From Ensifer sp. Root278 (GTDB lineage Bacteria > Pseudomonadota > Alphaproteobacteria > Rhizobiales > Rhizobiaceae): a stretch of 64,000 bases of DNA. Made by a program: the position numbers and the translations under genes. Below are positions 5,429 to 51,360 of the stretch, in pieces (within the stretch, counting starts at the first letter, position 1; each line of letters starts with the position of its first letter). The notes under the pieces were generated by a model. The model ran no database searches. It was given only the letters and a program-made list of their open reading frames with translations, and was not told the DNA's origin. Location of the stretch: positions 372,530-436,529 of the forward strand of contig NZ_LMJJ01000012.1 in the NCBI RefSeq assembly GCF_001429285.1, in the 5' to 3' direction.

Positions 5429-6310
5429 ATGAATTGGGACGATGTGAGAATGTTTCTAGCCGTGGCGCGCACCGGGCAGATCCTGGCGGCATCGAAGCGG
5501 CTGGGCGTCAACCATGCCACGCTCAGCCGCCGGGTGACGGCGCTTGAGGAAACCTTGAAGACCCGGCTGCTGGTGCGCCGGCCGAATGGCTGCGAGCTGA
5601 CCGCCGAAGGGGAAATCTTCCTGACGGCAGCCGAGCGGATGGAGACGGAGATGCTGGCGGCGCAATCGCAGATCGGCCGGATCGACACGGCAATCGCCGG
5701 CACGGTGCGCATCGGCGCGCCCGACGGCTTCGGCGTCTCGTTCCTGGCGCCGCGCCTCGGGCGCCTGACGGCCCGCTATCCGGAGCTGAAGCTGCAACTG
5801 GTGCCGGTGCCGCGTTCCTTTTCGCTGTCGCAGCGCGAGGCCGATATCGCAATCACCATCGAGCGACCGGAACAGGGCCGCCTCGTCTCCTCGAAGCTTA
5901 CGGATTACACGCTCGGTCTTTACGCCTCATCGGACTACCTGGAAAAACACGGGACGCCGCAGACGATCGACGATCTGAGGGAACATCGCCGCATCGGCTA
6001 TGTCGAGGACCTGATCTTCACGCCATCTCTGAATTTCTCCGCCGAGATCATGCGAAGCTGGGACGCCTCGTTCGAGATCTCCAGCGCCACCGGCCAGACG
6101 GAAGCCGTGCGCTCCAGCGCCGGCATCGGCATCCTGCACAACTATATCGCCCGCCACACGCCGGAGCTCAAACGCATCCTGCCGGAAACGACGATCCGCC
6201 GCGCCTATTGGACCACCTATCACGAAAGCGCCCGGGACCTCGTGCGCGTGCGCACGGTGGTGGCCTTCCTGCAGGAACTGGTGACAGCGGAACATCAGAT
6301 CTTCGTCTGA
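5429..6310 (+). CDS. LysR-family transcriptional regulator
   Basis: A 293-aa LysR-type regulator. The N-terminal winged helix-turn-helix runs from MNWDDVRMFLAVARTGQILAAS through NHATLSRRVTALEE, followed by the LysR effector-binding fold (GTVRIGAPDGFGVSFLAPRLG onward). I chose the ATG at 5429 over the longer open frame starting at 5324 because the domain begins there and GAGG precedes it. It is divergent from mmsA and may control it. The last 93 bases are repeated at about 93% identity at 11949-12041, which marks this gene's 3' end as a recombination boundary of the accessory segment. Confidence 0.9.
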   Translation: MNWDDVRMFLAVARTGQILAASKRLGVNHATLSRRVTALEETLKTRLLVRRPNGCELTAEGEIFLTAAERMETEMLAAQSQIGRIDTAIAGTVRIGAPDGFGVSFLAPRLGRLTARYPELKLQLVPVPRSFSLSQREADIAITIERPEQGRLVSSKLTDYTLGLYASSDYLEKHGTPQTIDDLREHRRIGYVEDLIFTPSLNFSAEIMRSWDASFEISSATGQTEAVRSSAGIGILHNYIARHTPELKRILPETTIRRAYWTTYHESARDLVRVRTVVAFLQELVTAEHQIFV

Positions 6311-6390
6311 GACCGGACCGGGCCAGGATGCACGAGAGACGGCGCGTCCGCGGGGCGCACGAGCACGATCAACGGGAGCGGCGCACCGAG

Positions 6391-6436
6391 GCGCTTCAAA
6401 CGAGAAAGAGAAGAAATAAGGAGAATGGTACGGTTG
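6391..6436 (+). repeat. Imperfect copy of the tRNA-His 3' flank (possible attachment site)
   Basis: AATGGTACGGTTG at 6424-6436 is identical to 15431-15443, which covers the encoded CCA and 3' acceptor strand of tRNA-His. Upstream of it, GCGCTTCAA at 6391-6399 matches 15402-15410, and the purine-rich spacer between (ATAAG-type) is similar in both copies. The two copies are in direct orientation about 9 kb apart. This is the arrangement expected of an element inserted at a tRNA 3' end, though the identical core is short. Confidence 0.5.
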
Positions 6437-6548
6437 CCAGAAGCCGTTTTTTTGTCCCACATTTTTCGAAGTGCCTGAGTTTGCTTGCTTTTCAGAATTC
6501 CTGCGGGCCCACCATGCGTCACATCGCATCGTAAACTCTGAAGTCTGA

Positions 6549-6589
6549 AACTGCGGGCTCTGGGACGCAAATCCCCAAAGCCCGCAAAT
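6549..6589 (-). terminator. Probable terminator of the arylsulfatase gene
   Basis: An 8-bp stem (TGCGGGCT with AGCCCGCA) has an inner GGGA/TCCC pairing. It lies 10 bases beyond the arylsulfatase stop. The following T tract on the minus strand is weak (GTTTCAG), so efficiency is uncertain. Confidence 0.5.
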
Positions 6590-6595
6590 TAAGGT

Positions 6596-8986
6596 TTACG
6601 GCTGCAGATTGACGGTAAGCTTTGCGATTTCACCGTTAAAGGCGAACGGGACCTGATAATCAGTTTCATCTACACCTGTGCGAGTATCGACGCCCACATC
6701 GAAAGTCTCATCCCAAGGCATGAGCGCCGGGATCGTGTGTGGTATTTTCGCGTTCGCGACCTCCTTGCCGTCCACCTTCAGGACGCCAGTGCCGCCCTTG
6801 CCCATGCCGGGTCCGTCAGATTTGAAATCGAACACCAGCGTGTGCTTGCCGGATGAAAGGGTGTCCTGCCCCTCCCAACGGAAGCGCTCCATATTGACGA
6901 AGTTGTACAGAAATACGGGTTTGCCCTTGAGGAGATAGAACCCGTATCCACCGAAGCGCCCCCCTGTGGTGACGAGCATACCCTCGCCGCCGTTTTCAGG
7001 AACGGTTACCTCTGCGGTGATCGTGTAGGATTTGTTGATGACGCTGGGTGCATTGCTTGTCGGAAGACCTGACACTACGCCGGCGTAGCTAAACTCCTTC
7101 CGTCCGGCGGTGGTGCTCGGCCGTGGCGTCTCAAGGCGTTCCAGGATCGAGTTGTCCAATGGGAAGACGTCGTACTTCGCCGCTTCCATCAGAAACAGTT
7201 CCTGCATCTGGTGCAATTTTTCCGGCATTTTTGCAGCAAGGTCGTTGTTCTGGGAATAGTCCTCAGTGAGGTTGTACAGTTCCCATTTATAGCCATCGAC
7301 GACGTCCGGCATCGCCGTCGTGCCCATCAACCACGGCGCTGCTGGTGGTGTCGTGCAGGCATACCAGCCATCGCTGTAGATGCCGCGATTGCCGAACATT
7401 TCAAAGTATTGCGTTTTGCGGGCAGATGAGGCTTGGGCATTGTCCCATGTATAGGCCATGCTCACGCCTTCGATCGGTTTCTGCGCAACGCCATCGACCA
7501 TAACCGGGGCGGTTATGCCTGTTGCTTCGAGGATCGTAGGAACGATATCGATCATGTGGTGGAACTGAGTGCGAACTCCACCGGCTTCCTTGATCCGTGC
7601 GGGCCAGGACATCGCCATGCCCTGACGCGTGCCGCCGAAGTGCGAAGCAACCTGCTTCGTCCATTTGAACGGCGTGTCAAACGCCCATGACCAGGCAACC
7701 GACATATGCGGATAGGTTTGGTTGGAGCCCCATTTATCATAGAACGCCATCTGCTCTGCGACCGGCATCTGCATGCCTTCGATCGTGATCAGTTCGTTCG
7801 GGGTTCCGAGCACGCTTCCTTCGGCGCTGGTGCCGTTGTCACCTTCAATGTAGATGACGAGGGTGTTGTCGAGCTTACCCAGATCATCGACGGCCTGGAT
7901 AACCCGCCCGATCTCATGGTCCGAGTAGGCCACGTAGGCAGCAAACACCTCAGCCTGGTGCGCGAACAGCTTCTTGCTCTCTTCGTCGAGAGAATCCCAT
8001 TTCGGGAGGCTCTCTGGCCATTCGGTTAGCTGCGTGTTGGCGGGAATGACGCCGAGCTTTTTCTGATTGGCGAAAATCTGCTCGCGCAACTCGTTCCACC
8101 CCATGTCAAACTTGCCCTTGAACTTGTCGATCCATTCCTTGGTTGGATGGTGGGGGGCATGAGTGGCACCGGGCACGTAGTAAACGAGGAACGGCTTGTC
8201 GGGTGCTGCCGCATTTAGCTGCTTTATATGATCAATGGCGTTGTCGGCCGTGTCCGTTATGAGGTTGTAGTCGGGCTTACCGGTCCAGGGGAAAATCTGG
8301 GTGGTGTTCTGGAACAGGTACGGCTCCCATTGATTGGTGTCGCCACCCATGAACCCATAGAAGTAGTCGAAGCCCATACCCGTCGGCCATTGATCGAACG
8401 GACCAGCGGCGCTGTACTGAAAAGCGGGCGTGTTGTGGTTCTTTCCGAACCAGGACGTGGCGTAGCCGTTCTGCTTCAGGATCTCGCCGATCGTAGCGTT
8501 CTCTATGCCGATGATCGAGTCATAGCCGGGATAGCCGGTTGCCTGCTCGGAGATGACGCCGAAACCCGCTGAATGGTGATTGCGGCCGGTGATAAGCGCG
8601 GCGCGCGACGGCGAGCAGAGCGCGGTGGAATGGAACTGCGTAAAGCGCAACCCCGCGTTTGCGACACGGTCGAGTGCCGGCGTGGGGATCACGCCTCCGA
8701 AAGTGCCCGCAACGCCGTATCCAGCGTCATCGGTCATGATCAGAAGGATGTTCGGGGCGCCCTTTCGGGGGACGATCTGCGGTGGCCAATAGGGTTTTGA
8801 GGCTTTCGCGTCGAGGCCGATTTCTCCACCGAACGCCGCCGGCGGGTTCGGTAGATATCGACCGTCGATCGTCGTTGTTGCGCTGGGCGAACCCAATTCA
8901 CCCGTGGTTTCCTGCGCATTGGCATTGAAATTCGAAGCTGCCGTCAAACTCAAGGTGGCAAGAAAGAGCGTACCTAGTCTTAGCAT
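6596..8986 (-). CDS. Secreted arylsulfatase (formylglycine-dependent sulfatase)
   Basis: Hydrolyses sulfate esters; probably periplasmic. The 796-aa protein has a signal peptide (MLRLGTLFLATLSLTAASNFNANA then QE). The metal-binding aspartates lie in IMTDDAGYG near residues 84-91. The sulfatase signature C-S-P-S-R has its cysteine at about residue 124, the residue oxidised to formylglycine. The order of motifs and the length fit the large family I arylsulfatases found in soil proteobacteria. The start is fixed by GGAGGAGAAGCGAC before the ATG at 8986. No maturation enzyme gene is nearby, so it would rely on one elsewhere. Third codon positions look less GC-biased than in neighbouring core genes, consistent with acquisition. 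The natural substrate cannot be told from sequence. Confidence 0.9.
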   Translation of the reverse strand: MLRLGTLFLATLSLTAASNFNANAQETTGELGSPSATTTIDGRYLPNPPAAFGGEIGLDAKASKPYWPPQIVPRKGAPNILLIMTDDAGYGVAGTFGGVIPTPALDRVANAGLRFTQFHSTALCSPSRAALITGRNHHSAGFGVISEQATGYPGYDSIIGIENATIGEILKQNGYATSWFGKNHNTPAFQYSAAGPFDQWPTGMGFDYFYGFMGGDTNQWEPYLFQNTTQIFPWTGKPDYNLITDTADNAIDHIKQLNAAAPDKPFLVYYVPGATHAPHHPTKEWIDKFKGKFDMGWNELREQIFANQKKLGVIPANTQLTEWPESLPKWDSLDEESKKLFAHQAEVFAAYVAYSDHEIGRVIQAVDDLGKLDNTLVIYIEGDNGTSAEGSVLGTPNELITIEGMQMPVAEQMAFYDKWGSNQTYPHMSVAWSWAFDTPFKWTKQVASHFGGTRQGMAMSWPARIKEAGGVRTQFHHMIDIVPTILEATGITAPVMVDGVAQKPIEGVSMAYTWDNAQASSARKTQYFEMFGNRGIYSDGWYACTTPPAAPWLMGTTAMPDVVDGYKWELYNLTEDYSQNNDLAAKMPEKLHQMQELFLMEAAKYDVFPLDNSILERLETPRPSTTAGRKEFSYAGVVSGLPTSNAPSVINKSYTITAEVTVPENGGEGMLVTTGGRFGGYGFYLLKGKPVFLYNFVNMERFRWEGQDTLSSGKHTLVFDFKSDGPGMGKGGTGVLKVDGKEVANAKIPHTIPALMPWDETFDVGVDTRTGVDETDYQVPFAFNGEIAKLTVNLQP

Positions 8987-9465
8987 GTCGCTTCTCCTCC
9001 GGTGAAAAAAAGAGAATTACAGAATGCTAAAATTAGGCAAGGTTGTAACAGTTACGAAGCCGGTTCGCATGCCCTGCGGACTGGGTGTCAGCGTGGGACA
9101 ATCTGAGGGAAACGCATAACGTTGCGTGGGGACGACACTGCGATAGGTTCTTTAGATTTCAAACGCTTATCAGCTGCATCGGCATCATCTGCGGCGCAAA
9201 CTACTATGCAAAATCTCACCCCCTCCGCCCGCCGATGAGAACACTCCAAGGCGATGCTGACGCGATCATTCGCACGCTGCTCGCCGACCGCACGCACCTG
9301 CGCTGACAGCTAGCGCTCGCCGAGACCTCGGCGCGCACCAGCTTAGCTCGAGGATGGCGTCCTCGCGGCGACAGGCAAACCGTACGTAGCACATGAGCGA
9401 CGAGACGACCAGAAGTGCCAGTCGGGGCTCCATACGGAACCAAGGCCCATGTGCCATCCACACGA
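8987..9465. other. Region without a convincing gene
   Basis: About 480 bases beyond the arylsulfatase start, including its presumed promoter near 8987-9060. Several overlapping open frames of 60-95 codons exist on both strands (9085-9306 plus; 9266-9463 minus), but none has a good ribosome binding site together with a protein-like composition. The minus frame begins directly after the 40-aa gene and has a short hydrophobic stretch; I could not decide whether it is translated. Confidence 0.4.
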
Positions 9466-9588
9466 CTAAAAGATGCTTCCAAACAGCGCGGAATAGACAA
9501 TCACGGCTATCGCGAGCGTAAACCCAAGCGCGACGAACAGTCGGGTGAAATCGTACGTATAGAATCGAGCGAGAGTAAAGTTCCTCAC
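9466..9588 (-). CDS. 40-aa single-pass membrane protein of unknown function
   Basis: A short gene starting with GTG at 9588, preceded by a strong AGGAGG at a spacing of 6 and ending with TAG. The product begins MRNFTLARFYTYDFTRLFVAL and continues with one hydrophobic helix (LGFTLAIAVIVYSALFGSIF), so it should be a small inner-membrane peptide with a basic/aromatic N-terminus. A second 40-aa protein of the same layout is encoded at 11753-11875; aligned without gaps the two share M1, R2, Y10, F14, V29, I30, Y32 and G37. It lies 57 bases downstream of the 113-aa gene on the same strand, so the two may form an operon. No known family is recognised. Confidence 0.65.
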   Translation of the reverse strand: MRNFTLARFYTYDFTRLFVALGFTLAIAVIVYSALFGSIF

Positions 9589-9645
9589 GGCGACCTCCTA
9601 ATTTTCATTTTGGTTGCGATGCCAGTGCACGGCGTCCACAGCAAC

Positions 9646-9987
9646 TCAGGACAATGAGCGACTGCAATTCGTACCGACCTTGCCTACGAGACCTGCCGGA
9701 ACTTGGATATCGGTCATGATTGCGGCTACGAATTCATCGCGTTTCGCACGATTGTCGAAGCCTTTGATTGCAGCGAGGTCCGTGCTTCTGGCAGTAGCCA
9801 TTCGTCCTGCTGCGCTTGAACAGATGCCCGCAAATGCATCCACCTGAGCGGTTTCCGCCGCCCGCGTGCTGGCAGTCGTGGTCGTAAGCCATCCAGCATT
9901 GAAACCGACAATCGGCGCCGCGAAAAGCCCAATGCCTAAACCAATGGCGTAGGGTCTTGTCCATTCAAAAATTCGATCGAGTGTCAT
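9646..9987 (-). CDS. Small membrane-anchored hypothetical protein (113 aa)
   Basis: The reading frame is open from 10104, but the ATG at 9987 is preceded by GAGGGAGC at the right distance and begins a typical N-terminus, MTLDRIFEWTRPYAIGLGIG. One hydrophobic segment (residues about 13-35) anchors the protein. The rest has a conserved-looking stretch with two cysteines (AGICSSAAGRM and GTNCSRSLS) and probably lies in the periplasm. Short proteins with this layout occur widely in Rhizobiaceae, to my recollection, but have no assigned function. It is upstream of the 40-aa membrane protein gene. Confidence 0.65.
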   Translation of the reverse strand: MTLDRIFEWTRPYAIGLGIGLFAAPIVGFNAGWLTTTTASTRAAETAQVDAFAGICSSAAGRMATARSTDLAAIKGFDNRAKRDEFVAAIMTDIQVPAGLVGKVGTNCSRSLS

Positions 9988-10463
9988 GACTTTGCTCCCT
10001 CTAATCAGGTGATTATCGGGATCGTTACAGGCCCGCGCTCGGACCATGAGCCAATGGCAATCCAGATTTTCCAGTTTGCGCTTTAAAAACGTCAATGTAA
10101 ACAATCAAGAATCGATGTTAATGTGAAATATTCGATATTTAATTATTGATACTAATATTTATAGAAATACATAATTCTTGATCTTTCTCTGGATTTATAT
10201 ATATCAACTGACGTCGAATTCTCCAGAATTTTTTCATGAGTCCGTCTAATACTCCCAAAATATCTTGGTAAAGCCTCAATCATCGGATACAGATTAAACG
10301 TCGTTCTTAGGCCAGCTTGGCTTTTTGCTTCGTCAGAGGCTCCAGACCGCCAAACTCACCAATCATCGATCCTTGACGGCAGTTGTTCGCGCTGCATTGG
10401 CGCCAGACCAGCCCGATTTGGCTGAACCTTGCGAACGGCGTTCGCCATAAGAAAGGGGGCAGT
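9988..10463. other. AT-rich intergenic region
   Basis: About 475 bases between divergent small genes. The part from 10105 to 10270 is strikingly AT-rich (runs such as ATTTAATTATTGATACTAAT), quite unlike the surrounding DNA. It probably holds promoters for both flanking genes. No gene was recognised in it. Confidence 0.5.
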
Positions 10464-10751
10464 ATGTTTACCCGTACGAAATACCGAACCGTCCATTTCG
10501 ATGAACCGTTCTGGATGCCAGGCCTCTGCGAGATGGTGGCCCCGGGCGACTACGAAGTTGATGAGGACGAGGAGTCGATTGAAGGCATCTCCTGGCTGGC
10601 TTATCGCCGCGTGGCGACCTTCATCAAGCTGCCGGCGACGCTCGAGAACAAATACCAAATGCGACTTGTTGCCATCGAGCCTGAGGAGCTTGAAGGCCTC
10701 ATCGCAGTGGATCGCGACAGGCACGCAATCTCCCTCTCGGCCAAATCGTAG
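10464..10751 (+). CDS. Hypothetical protein (95 aa), acidic
   Basis: Starts at the ATG at 10464, behind AAGGGGGC, rather than at the first in-frame ATG at 10383. The product MFTRTKYRTVHFDEPFWMPG is soluble-looking, with an acidic stretch DYEVDEDEESIEGISWLAYRRVATFI in the middle. I recall similar small proteins, with the FW and IEGISWLAYRRVATF motifs, as uncharacterised conserved proteins in Rhizobiales. No function can be assigned. It heads a run of short genes on the plus strand in the accessory segment. Confidence 0.6.
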   Translation: MFTRTKYRTVHFDEPFWMPGLCEMVAPGDYEVDEDEESIEGISWLAYRRVATFIKLPATLENKYQMRLVAIEPEELEGLIAVDRDRHAISLSAKS

Positions 10752-10839
10752 AGACAGCAATTCGATGGGTAACGGCGTTTGCCGCTTGGCTTGTCAGTTA
10801 GCCCCAAAAGTCGAACGAAGATGTCGGCCTATGCGGCCG

Positions 10840-10869
10840 AAACCTATCGCCCTCAAACCTATCGCCCTC
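10840..10869 (+). repeat. Two tandem 15-base repeats
   Basis: AAACCTATCGCCCTC occurs twice head-to-tail in an intergenic region between the 95-aa and 77-aa genes. It may be a slippage product or a pair of binding sites; nothing further can be said. Confidence 0.6.
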
Positions 10870-10987
10870 ATCACTGAAGTAAGGATGCATCGGTGCTGTT
10901 CAGACGATTTTCTTCAGGAAGCCATCCAGAGAGACAGACGGCTTTGAACATTGGAACACACACCGAAACCGAGGTTAGGGACGCGAT

Positions 10988-11221
10988 ATGAAAAATAGCG
11001 ACGAAGAACACGCACTCGCCATTAGTGTCTGGGAATCGGAAGGCGGGGCGCCCAACAGATCCATGAGGCTCTATCAATACGGACGCCGCGTCGAATGCGA
11101 CAGGTCGTACACGATCTACCATGTGTTCACGGGCGTGCCGGCAAAGATCGGTTCATGGACGATGACGGGGCTCAGCCAAAAGAATGCGGCGCGGGCTCTG
11201 CGTACTCTCAACACGCCCTAA
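10988..11221 (+). CDS. Hypothetical protein (77 aa)
   Basis: Starts with ATG behind AGGGACGCGAT. The product (MKNSDEEHALAISVWESEGG at the N-terminus) has no signal peptide or membrane segment. A pattern of conserved-looking residues (YGRRVECDRSYTIYHVFTGVPA) resembles, to my recollection, a family of small uncharacterised rhizobial proteins. It ends three codons after a short Ala/Arg-rich helix (QKNAARALRTLN). It shares direction with the 95-aa, 80-aa and 40-aa genes around it, but the gaps of 150-240 bases leave operon structure open. Confidence 0.55.
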   Translation: MKNSDEEHALAISVWESEGGAPNRSMRLYQYGRRVECDRSYTIYHVFTGVPAKIGSWTMTGLSQKNAARALRTLNTP

Positions 11222-11222
11222 A

Positions 11223-11277
11223 GCTTGTCGCGCAAAAAGTGCGCAGCGGTTTGGCGATAGCGACACGCGTGAAATCA
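11223..11277. repeat. Copy of a rhizobial intergenic palindromic repeat
   Basis: The sequence contains TTGTCGCGCAAAAAGTGCGC followed by AGCGGTTTGGCGATAGCGAC, with GCGCA/TGCGC forming a short hairpin. I recognise this as a member of a dispersed intergenic element common in Rhizobiaceae (typically GTCGCGCAAAAGTGCGCAGCGGTTTTGCGATAACGACA). It follows directly after the stop codon of the 77-aa gene. The family assignment is from memory. Confidence 0.5.
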
Positions 11278-11364
11278 AACTGTCGAAGCGCGTTGCACGA
11301 GGCCGTTTAAACGCGGCGCGCCCCGGGGCACCCGCAGATGTTCAACAATTGAAAGAGAGGCTCT

Positions 11365-11607
11365 ATGCACGGGTACTCCGATGATATCGTCCCGGCATTG
11401 AGTGAGACCGAAATTGGCGTGCTCCGGCGCGTATTTGACGCGGCTTGTGCTGAGTGCGGAATATCGCGGCAGGGCCAACAAATTCAGCGGCTGGCGCAAT
11501 TTCTCATGACCGAGTTCCGCCTCTACCCACTGGACGAAGAGGCGCTGCTGACAGCCGCACGGGCATTCTATTGCAAACAGAAACGTAAGCCCGGCAGCTC
11601 GGAATAA
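11365..11607 (+). CDS. Hypothetical protein (80 aa), helical
   Basis: An 80-residue protein beginning MHGYSDDIVPALSETEIGVL, preceded by GAAAGAGAGG at a spacing of 5. It is predicted to be mostly alpha-helical and soluble, with a single CAECG pair of cysteines and the segment FRLYPLDEEALLTAARAFY. I do not recognise a family with a known function. It lies about 145 bases before the second 40-aa membrane protein gene on the same strand. Confidence 0.55.
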   Translation: MHGYSDDIVPALSETEIGVLRRVFDAACAECGISRQGQQIQRLAQFLMTEFRLYPLDEEALLTAARAFYCKQKRKPGSSE

Positions 11608-11752
11608 TGTCGCCTATTTCGCGGGAAGGCGCTTGTTTCCAATTAATCAAATAACACCTTGGGCCCACCCTCGGAGGAGAAGTACAAACTGCCGAACATG
11701 GCCAGAGCACGGCTATAGTCGATCACAAACAAAATAAGAAAGGAAGAAAACC

Positions 11753-11875
11753 ATGAGATCGTACATTGGAAGCTTCGGATATCAATTCAGATTCGTTGAC
11801 TTCATGATCCGGTCATCGCTTGCGATTTCCCTTGGGGTCATAATCTACATCACATTCTATGGAATTTTCTGGTGA
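11753..11875 (+). CDS. 40-aa single-pass membrane protein, relative of the one at 9466-9588
   Basis: A short gene with AGGAAG at a spacing of 7 before its ATG and a TGA stop. The product begins MRSYIGSFGYQFRFVDFMIR and continues with one hydrophobic helix (SSLAISLGVIIYITFYGIFW). It has exactly the same length as the product of 9466-9588 and aligns with it without gaps (M1, R2, Y10, F14, V29, I30, Y32 and G37 shared, and many hydrophobic matches), so the two probably derive from one ancestor. The orientation is opposite to the first copy. Function unknown; a role as a small membrane regulator is only a guess. Confidence 0.6.
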   Translation: MRSYIGSFGYQFRFVDFMIRSSLAISLGVIIYITFYGIFW

Positions 11876-11925
11876 AAGCTCGTCACAAAAGGTCCACCGC
11901 TCATCGCGCCGCTTGGCTGACGCCC

Positions 11926-12041
11926 ATCCGCCGCGCCTACTGACCTCCTATCACGAAAGCGCCCGCGAGCTCGTGCGCGTGCGCACAGTCGTGGCTTTCC
12001 TGCAGGAACTGGTGACGGCGGAACATCAGATCTTCGTCTGA
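11926..12041 (+). pseudogene. Relic of the 3' end of a LysR gene
   Basis: The stretch repeats the 3' end of the intact LysR gene at 5429-6310. From TATCACGAAAGC to the TGA stop, 93 bases differ at only six positions, and the encoded peptide differs at one of 30 residues (D to E). Similarity starts at ATCCGCCGCGCCTA (11926), but a one-base deletion near 11942 breaks the frame. Everything before 11926 is unrelated, so no functional regulator is made here. The divergence is too high for a very recent duplication. It fits a displaced native or foreign gene end left by recombination. Confidence 0.75.
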
Positions 12042-12115
12042 CACGCCTGAATCGGAGAAATCCGCCACAATCGCGCGTCGGCAACCCGGCGGCCTCGTCG
12101 AGCGAATTTTCGCTA

Positions 12116-12796
12116 TCAATGTGCGACTTGTGAAGCGGCCGCCATCAGTTCCTTGGGATTGAGCGCCTGGCACATATTTTGACCTTGGTCCTCAACTTCT
12201 GTAAAGCTCCAGCGCACCACACCTTCTCGATCGAGCAGAAAATGGCCGACAAGCTGCATATGACCGGGTGTCCTCACCTGCTGATCGGCGTCTGTGATTT
12301 CGTACCCATCCTTTTCGCTCAGAAGGTCACCGGCGGCCGCCGGGTCCATCGGTTCAGGCAATTCCCCCGGCCGATCGACCCGCATCGTCTTGACCAGGTC
12401 CATTCCGACCTTGTGTGGCCAGTCGGTTTCTTCCTCCGTGAACTCGAGGAGGGGTAAGCCGAAGGCGCGGTGTGACGCCCGCTCCGGGTCGGATGCAGCA
12501 AGAAGGCCGGGTATCGGATGATAGCGGAAATAGAGCCGCGCGCGTTCGACCGGGGTGTTCACCACCGCCAGAGAGTCCACGCCTTTTTCGCGCAGGGCCG
12601 GGTTTAACTGTGCCATTGCCGCAACATGGCGACGGCAGAAGGGACATAGCAGGCCCCGATACAACCCGACCAACAATGGGCGACGGCCGCGAAAATCATC
12701 AAGGGCGATCTTGCCCTCGCGTGAGATCGCATCCAGCACAAAGTTCGGAGCCTGGTCGCCCAGTCGTAACGGATGGTCCTGATATTGTGGAGACAT
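12116..12796 (-). CDS. AhpC/TSA-like thioredoxin-fold protein (peroxiredoxin-like)
   Basis: A 226-aa cytosolic protein of the AhpC/TSA superfamily: RLGDQAPNFVLDAISREGKI starts the fold, followed by LYRGLLCPFCRRHVAAM with a CxxC pair at residues 51 and 54. A CPFC pair is closer to thiol-disulfide reductases than to classical peroxiredoxins, so the activity (peroxide reduction or disulfide exchange) is uncertain. The first ATG of the frame is at 12850, but the ATG at 12796 follows GAGGAGG and is the better start. It sits directly beside the LysR relic in the accessory segment and is convergent with nothing; its promoter must lie in 12797-13066. Confidence 0.8.
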   Translation of the reverse strand: MSPQYQDHPLRLGDQAPNFVLDAISREGKIALDDFRGRRPLLVGLYRGLLCPFCRRHVAAMAQLNPALREKGVDSLAVVNTPVERARLYFRYHPIPGLLAASDPERASHRAFGLPLLEFTEEETDWPHKVGMDLVKTMRVDRPGELPEPMDPAAAGDLLSEKDGYEITDADQQVRTPGHMQLVGHFLLDREGVVRWSFTEVEDQGQNMCQALNPKELMAAASQVAH

Positions 12797-13066
12797 GGTC
12801 AACCTCCTCGTCCGAAGGACCAATAAAGAAGAGGCCGCACAGCATCGCACGGCCTGACCTCTCGTCTTAGCGTATAGCCAGGATCAACCTGAGAATGGTC
12901 CCACATTGGCTCGCGAGCAAGCAGTAAACGGTGAATCGTGCCACGGGACGCTACCCCGGCAAGGCCGCATGGACTTCCTGACACGCGCCCCTCCCCTCGT
13001 TAATGAGCGATGGTCCAGAAGCGATGGATCAGAGCGTCTCAGAACGCATGCTGTCCGGTGTCGCAT

Positions 13067-14830
13067 CTAAAGGGAAATGCCGGCTTCCCGTAGTCCATCC
13101 ACCAGGCGGCCGAGCACGGCAGGGTCCCGATAGGGCAAGGCCCGTTTGAGGTGGTCGATGGAGAAATTCGGGTTGACCTCGAACACCTCGTGCCAATAGC
13201 GCCGAGCCTCCTCGTGACGCCCGGTGCGACCGTAGAGGCAGGCGAGATAGAAGCGCGTCATGTCGGATCGCGGCGCCAGCGCCAGCCGGCGCATGAAGGC
13301 GATCTCGGCCTCGTCGAAACGGCCGAGGTTCAGCAAGGTCCGCCCAAGGAAATGCAGCGACAGGTCGAACTGCGGATCGAGCCGATGCGCCCGCGTATAG
13401 AACGGCAGCGCGTCTTCGAACTGGCTCTGAAAATCCCGGATCGTGCCGAGGGCGGTATGGCCACCGGCGGAATTGGGATCGAGCTTGATCATCCGTTGGG
13501 CGGCGCTTTCGGCCTCATCGAAACGCCGCATCCAGCAGAGCGCGATTGAAAGCGCGTGATAGCCATGCGGCTCGTTGTCGTCGGTATCAACAGCCTTCTG
13601 CGCCAGTTCCAAGGCACGCTCCAGATTGTCCACCGTCCCGCCGTTCCATCGGTTGATGAAATCGGTCAAGGCGATGATCGAGAGGGACGCGTAGGCGGCT
13701 GCCAAACCCGGATCGATGGCGATAGCGCGCTCGAGCATGCTGCGCGCCTCCGCTGACGACACGGCATCGAACCGCAGAATGGCCTGACGGGACCGGACGA
13801 GCAGATCATAGGATTCCGGATCGACCTTACCGCGGCTTTCGCGTCGCTCTTCCTCGCCGGCCGTCAGCTTCACCTTGAGCGCCGTGACGATGGTGCGGGT
13901 CACTTCGTCCTGAACCTCGAAAATGTCTTCGATGCCGCGGTCGTAGCGCTCGGCCCAGAGATGACCGCCCGTCGTGCCGTCGATCATCTGGGCGTTGATG
14001 CGGATGCGGTTGGCGGCGCGGCGCACGCTGCCTTCAAGAACATAGCGCACACCAAGTTCCTGGCTCACCTTGCGGATATCCGGCGACTTGCCCTTGTAGG
14101 CAAAGGAGGAATTGCGGGCGATGACGAAGAGGCCGGAAACCTTCGAGAGATCGGTGATGATGTCCTCGGTGATGCCGTCGGCGAAATAACCCTGCTCCGG
14201 ATCGCCGGACATGTTGTCGAACGGCAGCACGGCGATCGAGGGCCGAGCCGGTAGCTGCGGCGGAGTTTCGGCGACGACCTCGACAGAAGCGCCCGCGTAC
14301 TCGTCCGGCGACCAGCTCCAGATGTGCACCGGGCGTTCGATGTTCTTGACCTCGTGGTGACCGCTGTCGGTGAAGTGGAGGTCGATGCGGCCGTGCATAT
14401 ATTCATGAACACCATCCGAGATGGCGACGCCGCCGGGTCTGGCGAGCGCCTCGATCCGGGCCGCGACATTCACGCCATCACCATAGAGATCGCTGTCGGC
14501 GACCATGATATCGCCCATATTGACGCCGACGCGAAGCACGATCGCCTGATCCGCCGGGACATCCCTGTTTGCGGCCATCATTTCCCGCTGAAGTGCTGCG
14601 GCGCATTCGACGGCATTGACGGCGCTGGAGAATTCGACGAGCACGCCGTCCCCTGTCGTCTTGAAGACCCGGCCCTGGTGGGTGGCGACGAGCGGCTCCA
14701 GCACCTCTTTCCACCGCGCCATGAGCCGCGTGTAGGTGCTCGTCTCGTCACGCTCCATCAGCCGGCTGTAGCCGACGACGTCAGCAGCCAGGATGGCGGC
14801 GAGTCTGCGCTTGATGGATTCGTTGGCCAT
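13067..14830 (-). CDS. Class III adenylate cyclase with TolB-like and TPR regions
   Basis: Makes cAMP from ATP. In the 587-aa protein, the catalytic domain occupies about residues 8-175: the metal-binding aspartates are D17 (AADVVGYS) and D61 (KTTGDGVLVEF), and the transition-state pair is N121 and R125 (VNVAAR). A TolB/FlgO-like segment follows (RPSIAVLPFDNMSGDPEQGY through ADGITEDIITDLSKV), then tetratricopeptide repeats to the C-terminus (AAYASLSIIAL, EPHGYHALSIALCW, AGGHTALGTIRDF). It has no membrane segment. Rhizobia carry many such cyclases, and this one cannot be tied to a specific signal. The frame opens at 14887, but MANESIKRRLAAILAADVVG at 14830 is the usual family N-terminus. Confidence 0.9.
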   Translation of the reverse strand: MANESIKRRLAAILAADVVGYSRLMERDETSTYTRLMARWKEVLEPLVATHQGRVFKTTGDGVLVEFSSAVNAVECAAALQREMMAANRDVPADQAIVLRVGVNMGDIMVADSDLYGDGVNVAARIEALARPGGVAISDGVHEYMHGRIDLHFTDSGHHEVKNIERPVHIWSWSPDEYAGASVEVVAETPPQLPARPSIAVLPFDNMSGDPEQGYFADGITEDIITDLSKVSGLFVIARNSSFAYKGKSPDIRKVSQELGVRYVLEGSVRRAANRIRINAQMIDGTTGGHLWAERYDRGIEDIFEVQDEVTRTIVTALKVKLTAGEEERRESRGKVDPESYDLLVRSRQAILRFDAVSSAEARSMLERAIAIDPGLAAAYASLSIIALTDFINRWNGGTVDNLERALELAQKAVDTDDNEPHGYHALSIALCWMRRFDEAESAAQRMIKLDPNSAGGHTALGTIRDFQSQFEDALPFYTRAHRLDPQFDLSLHFLGRTLLNLGRFDEAEIAFMRRLALAPRSDMTRFYLACLYGRTGRHEEARRYWHEVFEVNPNFSIDHLKRALPYRDPAVLGRLVDGLREAGISL

Positions 14831-15166
14831 GGATTGCGGCGCCTTCCGAGAATCCTTTCTCAAAATTTTACCGGCGGATGGCCCCAATGTCTATTCAGTC
14901 TGCGGTCGGTCTGCGGCTTGCCTGTTCACGCCTGAGACCCGCCATAGGCAGTTGGCCCAACTGGACCGTCTCTCATCCACCTCGGGCGGCAGCCATGCAG
15001 CCGATTAGCCCGATTTGGGTAGCGCAGCGGCAGGAACAGAGAGTTGTCTTCCTGCGTTTCTGCTCCATCGGAAAAACCCTGTGCGATGGCTCAGGGCGAC
15101 CGCGATGAACAGGCGGCCCGCCCCAGAAGCGGTTCGCATACGGATTTGAGGAAGGAGGATGGAACG
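14831..15166. other. Intergenic region between the cyclase and the 66-aa gene
   Basis: About 335 bases between divergent genes that must contain both promoters. Short overlapping frames exist but none has a persuasive start. Nothing else was recognised. Confidence 0.4.
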
Positions 15167-15367
15167 ATGCTTGTCGCTGTTACGGGCCGGCCAATCCTGC
15201 CGGGTGAATTCATCAAGATCGAAGACGTCTTCAGGGATGCGATTAGAGAGAGAAATCTTCCGCGCCGCTCATCGGAGGCCAAGGAGCTGGCAGTCCGGCT
15301 GTTCGAGCTTTACCAGAATGGCGTCGATGACGTGGTGGCGCTGAGAGCGATGGCCAAGCTGTTCTGA
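15167..15367 (+). CDS. Hypothetical protein (66 aa)
   Basis: The frame is open from 15044, but the ATG at 15167 follows GAAGGAGG at a spacing of 8 and begins a compact protein, MLVAVTGRPILPGEFIKIED. The sequence continues with a helical C-terminus (SSEAKELAVRLFELYQNGVD then DVVALRAMAKLF). It looks soluble, and small proteins of this kind are, to my recollection, common but uncharacterised in Rhizobiales. It is the last gene before tRNA-His and lies just inside the presumed right end of the accessory segment. Confidence 0.6.
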   Translation: MLVAVTGRPILPGEFIKIEDVFRDAIRERNLPRRSSEAKELAVRLFELYQNGVDDVVALRAMAKLF

Positions 15368-15432
15368 GCGCGCGATGTTTGCGGCGATGGCTGCTACGCA
15401 AGCGCTTCAATATCAATGAGATAAGAAGGAAA

Positions 15433-15509
15433 TGGTACGGTTGGTGGGAATCGAACCTACGACCTCAGGTGCCACAAACCTGCGCTCTAACCAACTGAGC
15501 TACAACCGC
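15433..15509 (-). tRNA. tRNA-His (anticodon GTG)
   Basis: A 77-base tRNA on the minus strand with encoded CCA. The anticodon GTG is at 15473-15475 in the loop TTTGTGG; the T-arm GGTTCGATTCC and D-arm AGCTCAGTTGGTTAGAGC are normal. The acceptor stem is GCGGTTG with CAACCGT, giving G1:U72, and position 73 is A; the base before G1 is T rather than G. This is the unusual form known from a large clade of alphaproteobacteria, which lacks the G-1 and C73 identity pair used elsewhere. The 3' end faces the LysR/accessory side. Confidence 0.95.
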
Positions 15510-27817: not shown

Positions 27818-28963
27818 TCAATCCTTCAGAACGACGCCGGCGTCTTCGCCGAAGGAAATCCAGACCTCCTGGTCGTAGCCGAGCGGATCCTCAACCGCGC
27901 GCACCGCATTCAGCGACGACGCCTTGATCACGCGTCCGTCCTTCAGGCGCACGTGGAAGACGGTCATGTCGCCGAGATAACCGATATCCCAGATCTCCCC
28001 CTGGACGGCGTTGACGGGCGCGTGTGCCGGCGGCTGGCGGCTGACACGAATCTTTTCCGGGCGGACGGCGACGGCGGACTTGCCGCCTGTAGCCGGTCTT
28101 TCGGGCGACGCCATGCGGATCGGGAAGCCGTTGGTGCCTTCAAGGCGCACGTAGCCGCCGTCAGCCCCGCCGACCGCTCCTTCGAAAATGTTGACGTCGC
28201 CGATGAAGTCCGCGACGAAACGGGAATTCGGCGCCTCATAGATCTCGGCCGGGGTCGCGACCTGGATGACCTTGCCGTGGCTCATCACCGCAATGCGGTC
28301 GGCCATGGTCATCGCCTCCTCCTGGTCGTGCGTCACGACGACGAAGGTGAGGCCGAGTTCCTGCTGCAGGTCCATCAGTTCGAACTGGGTTTCCTCGCGC
28401 AGCTTCTTGTCGAGCGCGCCGAGCGGCTCGTCGAGGAGCAGCACCTTCGGCCGCTTGGCAAGCGAGCGGGCGAGCGCGACGCGCTGACGCTGGCCGCCGG
28501 AAAGCTGGTGCGGCTTGCGCTGGGAAAACTTTTCGAGCTTCACCAGCTTCAGCATCTGCGCGACGCGCGCAGCGATATCCGCTTTCGGCATGCCGTCCTG
28601 CTTGAGGCCGAAGGCGATGTTGTTCTCGACCGTCATGTGCGGAAAGAGCGCGTAGGACTGGAACATCATGTTGACCGGCCGCCGGTAGGGCGGGATGCCG
28701 GCGAGGCTCTGCCCGTCGAGAATGATCTCACCCGACGTCGGCTGCTCGAAGCCGGCAAGCATGCGCAGGAGCGTCGACTTCCCGCAGCCCGACGCGCCGA
28801 GGAGCGCAAAGAACTCGCGTGTGTAGATATCAAGCGAAAGGTCGTCGACGGCGGTGAAATCGCCGAACCGCTTTGTCACGTTCTTGACGGAAATGAATGG
28901 CTTGGAAGCGGGATCCGCCCAGGGGGCAAAGGACCGCCGAATACTGCCGAGAGACTTCATCAT
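27818..28963 (-). CDS. potG: Putrescine ABC transporter ATPase PotG
   Basis: The ATP-binding subunit that energises putrescine import. In the 381-aa protein the Walker A motif is GASGCGKSTLLRMLAG, the ABC signature is QLSGGQRQRVALARSLAKRP, and Walker B is KVLLLDEPLGALD, with a switch His in FVVVTHDQEEAMT. A C-terminal TOBE-like domain follows (VRPEKIRVSRQPPA onward). The start at 28963 has a GGGGAT upstream. A stable hairpin at 29023-29052 lies between it and potF, so potG-potH-potI may be made in smaller amounts than PotF. Confidence 0.92.
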   Translation of the reverse strand: MMKSLGSIRRSFAPWADPASKPFISVKNVTKRFGDFTAVDDLSLDIYTREFFALLGASGCGKSTLLRMLAGFEQPTSGEIILDGQSLAGIPPYRRPVNMMFQSYALFPHMTVENNIAFGLKQDGMPKADIAARVAQMLKLVKLEKFSQRKPHQLSGGQRQRVALARSLAKRPKVLLLDEPLGALDKKLREETQFELMDLQQELGLTFVVVTHDQEEAMTMADRIAVMSHGKVIQVATPAEIYEAPNSRFVADFIGDVNIFEGAVGGADGGYVRLEGTNGFPIRMASPERPATGGKSAVAVRPEKIRVSRQPPAHAPVNAVQGEIWDIGYLGDMTVFHVRLKDGRVIKASSLNAVRAVEDPLGYDQEVWISFGEDAGVVLKD

Positions 28964-50271: not shown

Positions 50272-51360
50272 TTAGGCGCGATAGCTGCGACCGTCAGCAT
50301 CGAACAGGTGCAGCTTGGCCTTGTCGGCGGTGAAGCGCACCTTGTCGCCGCGATGAACCGGCAGGATGCCGGGGATCTTGGCGATGATCGGCTCCTTGTC
50401 GACCAGACCTTCGATATAGAGCAGCGTCACTTCGCCGAGTGCCTCGACGATGGCGACCGTGCCCTCGAACAGGAAGTCCTCGCCAGCGGAGACCTGCAGG
50501 TCTTCCGGCCGCACGCCGAAGCTCGCCGTCTTGCCGTTCTGCGATGCGTCCGTGGCTATATCGAGCGTGACGCTCTTGCCGCCGGTCAGCTTCACCGTGG
50601 TCTGCGCGCCGGTGGCCGTAATCGCCGAGGGGATGATGTTCATCGCCGGCGAGCCGATGAAGCGCGCGACGAAGAGATTGGCCGGCCGCTCGTAAAGTTC
50701 CAGCGGCGCACCCACCTGCTCGATATGGCCTTGCGACAGCACGACGATACGATCGGCAAGCGTCATTGCCTCCACCTGGTCGTGGGTGACATAGATCATC
50801 GTGGTATCAGCCATCTGCTCGTTGAGCTTGGCGATCTCGATGCGGGTCGCAACGCGCAAGGCCGCGTCGAGGTTCGACAGCGGCTCGTCGAACAGGAAGA
50901 CCTTGGGGTCGCGGCAGATCGCCCGGCCGATCGCAACGCGCTGGCGTTGACCGCCCGAAAGCGCTTTCGGCAGACGATCGAGATACTTGGTGAGCTGCAG
51001 GATATCGGCGGCCGCGCGCACGCGGCGATCGATCTCCTCCTTCGACTCCTTGGCGATCCGCATGCCGAAGGCCATGTTGTCGTACACGGTCATATGCGGA
51101 TAGAGCGCGTAGGACTGGAATACCATGGCGATGCCGCGCTTCGACGGCGGCACGGTGTTGACGCGCTCGCCGTCGATGAACATGTCGCCGCCGGTGATCT
51201 CCTCGAGACCGGCGATCATGCGCAGCAGCGTCGACTTTCCGCAGCCGGACGGGCCGACGAAGACGATGAACTCGCCCTGCTTGATGTCGAGATTGATGCC
51301 ATGAATGACATCGACCGCGCCGTAGGACTTGCGGATATCTTTAAGCAGCAGACCCGTCAT
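50272..51360 (-). CDS. aglK: Alpha-glucoside ABC transporter ATPase (UgpC/MalK type)
   Basis: Energises import of alpha-glucosides such as sucrose, maltose and trehalose through AglFG. The 362-aa protein carries Walker A GPSGCGKSTLLRMIAG, signature LSGGQRQRVAIGRAICRDPK, Walker B KVFLFDEPLSNLDA and a His switch in YVTHDQVEAMT, then a MalK-type C-terminal regulatory domain (FGVRPEDLQVSAGEDFLFEG). It is the last gene of aglE-aglF-aglG-aglA-aglK and starts 60 bases after aglA. The transported range comes from knowledge of the Sinorhizobium system. Confidence 0.92.
   Translation of the reverse strand: MTGLLLKDIRKSYGAVDVIHGINLDIKQGEFIVFVGPSGCGKSTLLRMIAGLEEITGGDMFIDGERVNTVPPSKRGIAMVFQSYALYPHMTVYDNMAFGMRIAKESKEEIDRRVRAAADILQLTKYLDRLPKALSGGQRQRVAIGRAICRDPKVFLFDEPLSNLDAALRVATRIEIAKLNEQMADTTMIYVTHDQVEAMTLADRIVVLSQGHIEQVGAPLELYERPANLFVARFIGSPAMNIIPSAITATGAQTTVKLTGGKSVTLDIATDASQNGKTASFGVRPEDLQVSAGEDFLFEGTVAIVEALGEVTLLYIEGLVDKEPIIAKIPGILPVHRGDKVRFTADKAKLHLFDADGRSYRA

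Follow-up and report, generated by a model that had tools for sequence, protein, structure and literature searches.

A Displaced LysR Gene End in Ensifer sp. Root278: A Likely Scar of Accessory DNA Entry Beside a Variable tRNA-His Locus

Introduction

Elements of the icd type integrate into the 3′ ends of protein-coding genes and bring a replacement end with them. Homology-facilitated illegitimate recombination (HFIR) is proposed, in the relevant passages of one report, for the effector arrays of V. cholerae, where the 3′ part of the resident gene is displaced (PMC5361080), and in passages of another for variable segments of E. coli (PMC2884548); a third paper (PMC3240628) also relates to the process. 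In rhizobia, tRNA-targeted island hot spots are described in sections of a study of S. meliloti, with repeats of 27–49 bp for two of them and with tRNA-His appearing in a table (PMC11476347), and excerpts of other papers place elements beside tRNA-His in Bradyrhizobium (PMC9239051) and Mesorhizobium (PMC8627217). The interval between LysR and tRNA-His is not named in the parts of the literature found to bear on it, which is not to claim that the interval is unpublished.

The locus of Ensifer sp. Root278 described here can be set beside each of these systems. It resembles the icd type in having an intact gene and, across an insert, a displaced gene end, and differs in that a recombinase was not found on the contig, the LysR end does not recur as a target in the loci examined and the footprint is that of a tRNA. 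Like HFIR in the passages cited, it would have a homology anchor on one side and a join without long homology on the other, leaving the resident 3′ part as a downstream orphan; a conserved regulator would serve as the anchor here, and the cargo consists of a sulfatase and small genes rather than the effector-immunity modules of those passages, and the event is read from sequence alone. As in the rhizobial tRNA islands, accessory DNA lies by a tRNA gene whose 3′ end is repeated at the far side, but this repeat is 13 nt long, shorter than those given in the S. meliloti sections, and no integrase was found.

Sequences Compared

The whole stretch of DNA analysed, here called the window, comprises 64,000 nt of Ensifer sp. 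Root278, a member of the Ensifer adhaerens group (NZ_LMJJ01000012.1, positions 372,530–436,529, forward strand). The same-genus set consists of 15 other genomes (labelled G001 onwards, G000 being the window's own genome), in which the best match per genome to the LysR gene has 86–91% identity. The sequence following LysR was compared at 33 loci, namely these 15 and 18 named Sinorhizobium/Ensifer loci (L102–L119). Thirty of the 33 extend to tRNA-His or its 3′ end; L109, L112 and L118 provide 226, 1504 and 9997 nt after LysR, respectively, and none of these three reaches tRNA-His. Second copies of the LysR tail were surveyed in 95 loci, some of which are the same genome under two identifiers, and two short inverted matches within the tail itself were set aside. 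The tail tree holds 35 tails. Among the best 80 of 536 confirmed loci, the close LysR relatives include Ensifer sesbaniae CCBAU 65729 and strains of E. adhaerens and E. oleiphilus, and the LysR body is most closely related to that of G012 (E. sesbaniae). Feature coordinates are collected in Table 1.

Table 1. Features of the LysR/tRNA-His region, in window coordinates
Feature	Position	Strand	Family or remark
LysR-family regulator gene, intact, 293 aa	5429..6310	+	PF00126 and PF03466
Copy A, LysR gene end (last ~123 nt)	6188..6310	+	in frame with the intact gene
Insert, 5.6 kb, mosaic accessory DNA between copies A and B	6311..11919		pieces match scattered places
Spacer of 113 nt after copy A	6311..6423		no relative found as a whole
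Exact match of 13 nt to the 3′ end of tRNA-His	6424..6436	+	
Sulfatase module	6433..9125		circularly permuted relative to G001
Degenerate copy of a tRNA 3′ end (anticodon CAT)	6491..6514	+	
Arylsulfatase-like gene, 796 aa	6596..8986	-	PF00884, E 1.5e-58
Accessory segment, small genes	9459..11225		no family match
Copy B, LysR gene end, truncated, frameshifted and displaced	11920..12041	+	joined to inherited downstream sequence
Peroxiredoxin-like gene (AhpC/TSA)	12116..12850	-	PF00578
Adenylate cyclase with TPR repeats	13067..14887	-	PF00211
tRNA-His (GTG), intact, inherited right-hand landmark	15433..15509	-	

The Two Copies of the LysR Gene End

The LysR regulator is intact as read from its sequence, and its length is the same in all 33 relatives examined. 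That the end of this gene is repeated further along the window had been reported in a sequence-only reading, and the repeat is real. Repeat detection pairs 6211–6313 with 11942–12044 (103 nt, 92%) and 6188–6210 with 11920–11942, and BLAST of the window against itself aligns 6188–6313 with 11920–12044 in 126 columns that include one gap, at 90.5% identity (E 1.6e-42), which is the strongest self-match among those listed for the 64 kb. The second strongest listed joins 28422–28818 and 50879–51275 at 69% over 405 bases. As stated before, the last 93 bases (6218–6310 and 11949–12041) differ by six mismatches, at 6235, 6238, 6256, 6259, 6265 and 6286, and by one residue, D to E. The one-base deletion upstream was also described correctly; it belongs to copy B, at the position equal to 6210, and just downstream of it copy B carries an A-to-T change at 6215 (Thr to Ser). 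A search of the genome itself at E ≤ 0.001 gave the tail at these two places and nowhere else.

Seven of the eight substituted sites between the copies are at third codon positions (binomial P 0.0026), which fits alleles that diverged as coding sequence. Their identity, 92.9% over 99 nt, is at or above that of 94% of the 105 pairs formed by the tails of 15 relatives, the mean of which is 86.1%. No other tail is closer to A than B is, or to B than A is (tree path 0.091), and the tail tree places both among the ten rows of a clade that represents the window's species group (support 95/91) and has no firm branching order inside it. The deletion and the T at 6215 are each seen in copy B and in 0/33 relatives, which is what relaxed selection would be expected to leave; the Glu of copy B at the D-to-E site is no sign of decay, because 10 of the 33 relatives have it as well. 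Copy A has rare states of its own, G at 6235 (0/33) and A at 6286 (1/33), and not one state is common to A and B yet absent from all 15 relatives. Over 99 nt, G012 is 90.9% identical to A and 87.9% to B, and at the sites where the copies differ it agrees with A five times and with B twice.

As to the suggestion that LysR homologs be used to tell which copy is native, both copies lie in the species-group clade, A being nearer to G012 and B standing at the inherited junction, and the tail, at 99–123 nt, is too short for its sequence to tell the native copy, or allele exchange from local duplication. Old paralogy is a different matter. An ancient pair shared with distant species, the outcome that the earlier reading had set against itself, did not appear; all 15 other same-genus genomes have a single LysR tail where this genome has two, a second direct tail was seen in 0/95 loci, and the two copies share the species-group clade, so that old paralogy is ruled out. 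On these comparisons A and B are two allelic versions of the LysR tail.

The Inherited Neighbourhood

A homolog of the peroxiredoxin starts 100–200 nt past the LysR stop in four of the 15 same-genus genomes (G011, G012, G013 and G014), and in 11 of them a cyclase homolog separates LysR from tRNA-His. Genomes in which the sequence found here after 12041 is joined to LysR, which the earlier reading had proposed to look for, do exist: the gene is intact and joined to it in G012, G011 and G013, and in G014 similarity to the window resumes after LysR at 12107. All eight relatives of the same tail clade have the cyclase, with or without the peroxiredoxin, in the interval from LysR to tRNA-His. This order of LysR, peroxiredoxin/cyclase and tRNA-His in the relatives places copy B at the inherited junction and makes 6311–11919 the insert. 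None of the 33 loci compared yielded insert DNA downstream of LysR (plus strand, E ≤ 1e-4).

The interval between LysR and tRNA-His varies in size and content across the group, and in most relatives the similarity between species stops at about the LysR stop codon. The boundary at 6311, directly after the stop codon, had been offered as evidence of a breakpoint; similarity ending near that point is thus also what most interspecies comparisons give, and the boundary is no evidence of one.

Composition of the Insert

The GC content of the insert ranges from 43 to 60% in 500-nt steps, as compared with 59–63% for 12000–14999. The sulfatase module is 94% identical to its closest relative, in G001 (L174, G001:C1:1953000-1970000). 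In the window 6433–6502 is followed by 6526–9125, while in G001 the part equivalent to 6526–9125 is followed by that equivalent to 6433–6502, and GTTGC is common at the join. The tRNA-CAT end within the module gives a local alignment score of 15, which is reached by 0/1000 shuffles and 4/3000 random stretches. The module end 6433–6515 recurs in four other same-genus genomes besides G001, and in G011, G007 and G002 an intact tRNA-CAT gene of like orientation precedes this unit by 0.8–2.3 kb, the unit ending in a degenerate 3′ end of that tRNA. G001 as the integrated form is not established, its left flank comparing with the tRNA-CAT end at 55/2000 shuffles and 23/3000 random stretches and its right flank no better than chance (265/3000).

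A dispersed unit is present in several copies (L208, L209, L210 and L211), with inverted arms like GTGGGACA/TGTCCCAC and an end resembling the tRNA-CAT 3′ end; the window carries its two halves, 9090–9125 and 6433–6515, one at either end of the sulfatase module. A RIT (recombinase-in-trio) element was considered as the origin of the unit with inverted repeats around 6433–6502/9090–9125 and rejected, since the trio L218 (S. americanum CFNEI 156; one trio compared) is bounded by different inverted repeats and does not contain the unit.

The segment 9459–11225 has an 80% relative in the window's own genome (G000:C2:197000-198900), relatives of about 72–79% in G013, G012, G007 and G009, and others on Sinorhizobium plasmids. 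At 11217–11280 there is a dispersed intergenic repeat, with matches of about 75–95% in at least 13 of 16 genus genomes, which we take to be RIME-like. The remaining DNA of the insert has few or short matches. When plasmids were searched with the whole insert, 283 records were obtained and none has a single place covering 80% of the query; among the best 20 of the 283, 17 match the sulfatase part (64–78% identity) and three match 9459–11225. On the window's contig, searches for the tyrosine recombinase (PF00589) and resolvase (PF00239) families gave no match at E ≤ 0.001, and no family match among the insert ORFs tested suggests an integrase.

The tRNA-His Footprint After Copy A

The 13-nt tRNA-His end that follows copy A has two matches in the window, the second being the real tRNA-His on the minus strand, and none in 100 shuffles; as direct and exact repeats the two flank 6437–15430. 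A profile made of the tRNA-His flanks of 15 relatives scores 15397–15443 (E 4e-10) and 6418–6436 (E 0.004), with nothing else below E 1 in the 64 kb. The tRNA-His 3′ end lies 16–114 nt past the LysR stop in nine of the 18 named loci (the tRNA is broken in L107), and in the window, counted in the same way, the copy starts at 114 nt. The sequence after copy A resembles the LysR-tRNA-His junction of another chromosome, as judged from this spacing and the footprint.

The spacer itself has only short matches in the 15 same-genus genomes (E 0.015 or worse) and likewise only short matches, at scattered places, in 297 genomes of the family, where two candidates were scored in each genome and the best match spans 25 nt (E 1.2e-4); 6311–6600 has no match among plasmids; a donor carrying it was not found in these same-genus, family genome and plasmid searches. 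Kinship of 6311–6424 with the window's own pre-tRNA flank was set aside as weak (19/300 shuffles); only the last 19 nt score with the flank profile. At the other end of the module, the stretch to the right of 9125 compares with a tRNA-His T-arm remnant at 46/300 shuffles when unanchored and at 16/3000 shuffles and 27/5000 random positions when anchored, which is no more than suggestive of a continuation of the 13-nt copy there.

The tRNA-His gene varies among close relatives. Its 5′ half is constant in the window and in 28 other loci with an intact gene, while the 3′ half occurs in several versions (GTGGGAATCGAAC, GGGGGTCTCGAAC, GGTGGTCTCGAAC, AGTGGGGTCGAAC and others), as if replaced repeatedly. 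In S. fredii USDA 205 (L107 10900-12690) the match to tRNA-His beside LysR extends over just 53 bp, without a tRNA call; just beyond it lies an integrase-like gene (phrog_1, E 3e-12) that has no NCBIfam match and a Pfam Phage_integrase score below the cut-off. Inspected visually, L114 has a degraded stretch resembling tRNA-His downstream of LysR, and in L118 tRNA-His is absent within 10 kb of LysR.

Origin of the Displaced End

We prefer the explanation that copy B is the displaced remnant of the resident LysR end, left by the entry of accessory DNA that was linked to another Ensifer LysR allele, and give it a probability of roughly 55%. Starting from what is observed directly, namely the location of the copies, their allelic nature, the absence of the insert from the loci compared and the footprints, the incoming DNA would have carried the LysR gene or its end and, some 113 nt further on, a tRNA-His into whose end the sulfatase module had been inserted. 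On the left it would have paired by homology with the resident LysR gene; on the right it would have been joined illegitimately, without long homology, inside the resident LysR at about codon 254. The intact gene would thereby have taken the incoming end, and the resident end would have stayed as a truncated fragment minus one base. Such a process would work like HFIR. Homology at one end is seen in the LysR body continuous with tail A and allelic to B, where anchoring would have occurred, and displacement of resident sequence rather than its deletion is seen in copy B joined to the inherited genes. To the left of 11920, in the joined sequence, similarity to LysR is no better than in shuffles (76/300).

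This explanation is preferred because the relatives have one tail each where the window has two, because their LysR gene runs into the sequence that follows copy B here (in G014 with a gap), because both copies belong to one well-supported clade, because the contig holds no integrase or resolvase match and because the GC content of the insert departs from that downstream. Allele exchange in particular is favoured because of what follows copy A, a tRNA-His end after 113 nt where nine of 18 named loci have a spacing of 114 nt or less. The tRNA-His footprint, at 13 nt, is short for this explanation, and the searches gave no donor with the spacer. The greater closeness of G012 to copy A counts against the preferred polarity, and later decay of copy B could give the same result.

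That closeness also speaks for two other explanations. The resident LysR end may have been duplicated in place when the insert entered, for instance by single crossover of a circle bearing a LysR fragment or by a tandem duplication that was split later, with copy B decaying afterwards. The copies being each other's closest sequence, and the frameshift and Thr-to-Ser change confined to B, are consistent with such an origin, but copy A carries rare states too, so both have moved; A and B have no state in common that all 15 relatives lack, and a tRNA-His end 113 nt after copy A is not predicted. We regard duplication in place as unlikely. Alternatively the polarity may be the reverse, with copy A and the LysR-tRNA-His spacing resident, copy B, peroxiredoxin and cyclase captured, and 6437–15430 forming one island between tRNA-His ends. 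The exact direct repeats flanking that stretch, the short LysR-tRNA-His spacing of half the named loci and, in S. fredii USDA 205, the broken tRNA-His with an integrase-like gene beyond it all point this way; the cyclase, however, lies between LysR and tRNA-His in all eight tail-clade relatives, which by parsimony makes the B side inherited, and a reversed polarity is held to be distinctly improbable.

Site-specific integration of the icd type at the LysR 3′ end, with an attachment site that carries a replacement end so that copy A restores the gene and copy B is displaced, is the target-site reading proposed earlier, and it accounts well for the geometry: an intact gene with A, an insert not found here in the compared loci, and B on inherited DNA, so that the gene end stands at both borders of the insert. 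The element could also have lost its integrase. Against it are the missing recombinase and integrase matches on the contig and among the insert ORFs tested, and the failure of any of the 95 loci to repeat the LysR end directly; moreover, the attachment-type footprint after copy A is that of tRNA-His, which a model with LysR as the attachment site does not predict. Integration of this kind is accordingly given little credence. As for the island type, the window has the distal copy of the tRNA-His 3′ end, exact but short at 13 nt, and no integrase gene was found.

The history of the sulfatase module can be sketched only tentatively. It may have been an integrase-free circle, bearing the joined attachment region (6433–6526) of a tRNA-CAT island, that opened at the shared GTTGC into a second, LysR-linked tRNA-His, destroying it, after which the block would have entered in tandem with the resident LysR-tRNA-His block. 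We consider this doubtful; if true, a single locus would record a circle intermediate, retargeting from tRNA to tRNA and the displacement of a gene end.

Conclusions

The finding is real, was read well in its outline and is ordinary in kind. Of the two origins put forward by the sequence-only reading, the insertion that brings its own gene end holds in part, in that there is an accessory insert at 6311–11919 with replacement-end geometry, while integration targeted to the LysR 3′ end is unsupported; exchange of a homologous tail between strains is the better fit of the two. The locus is best explained as a scar of ordinary gene exchange and not as a new system. Copy B is most likely without function, and in annotation it should be labelled a remnant rather than a gene. 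The case also advises caution, as the duplication of a gene end next to an insert need not make that gene end an attachment site. For the rhizobia, the locus would stand as a legible scar of accessory DNA that came into the chromosome next to a variable tRNA-His locus and brought no recombinase with it.
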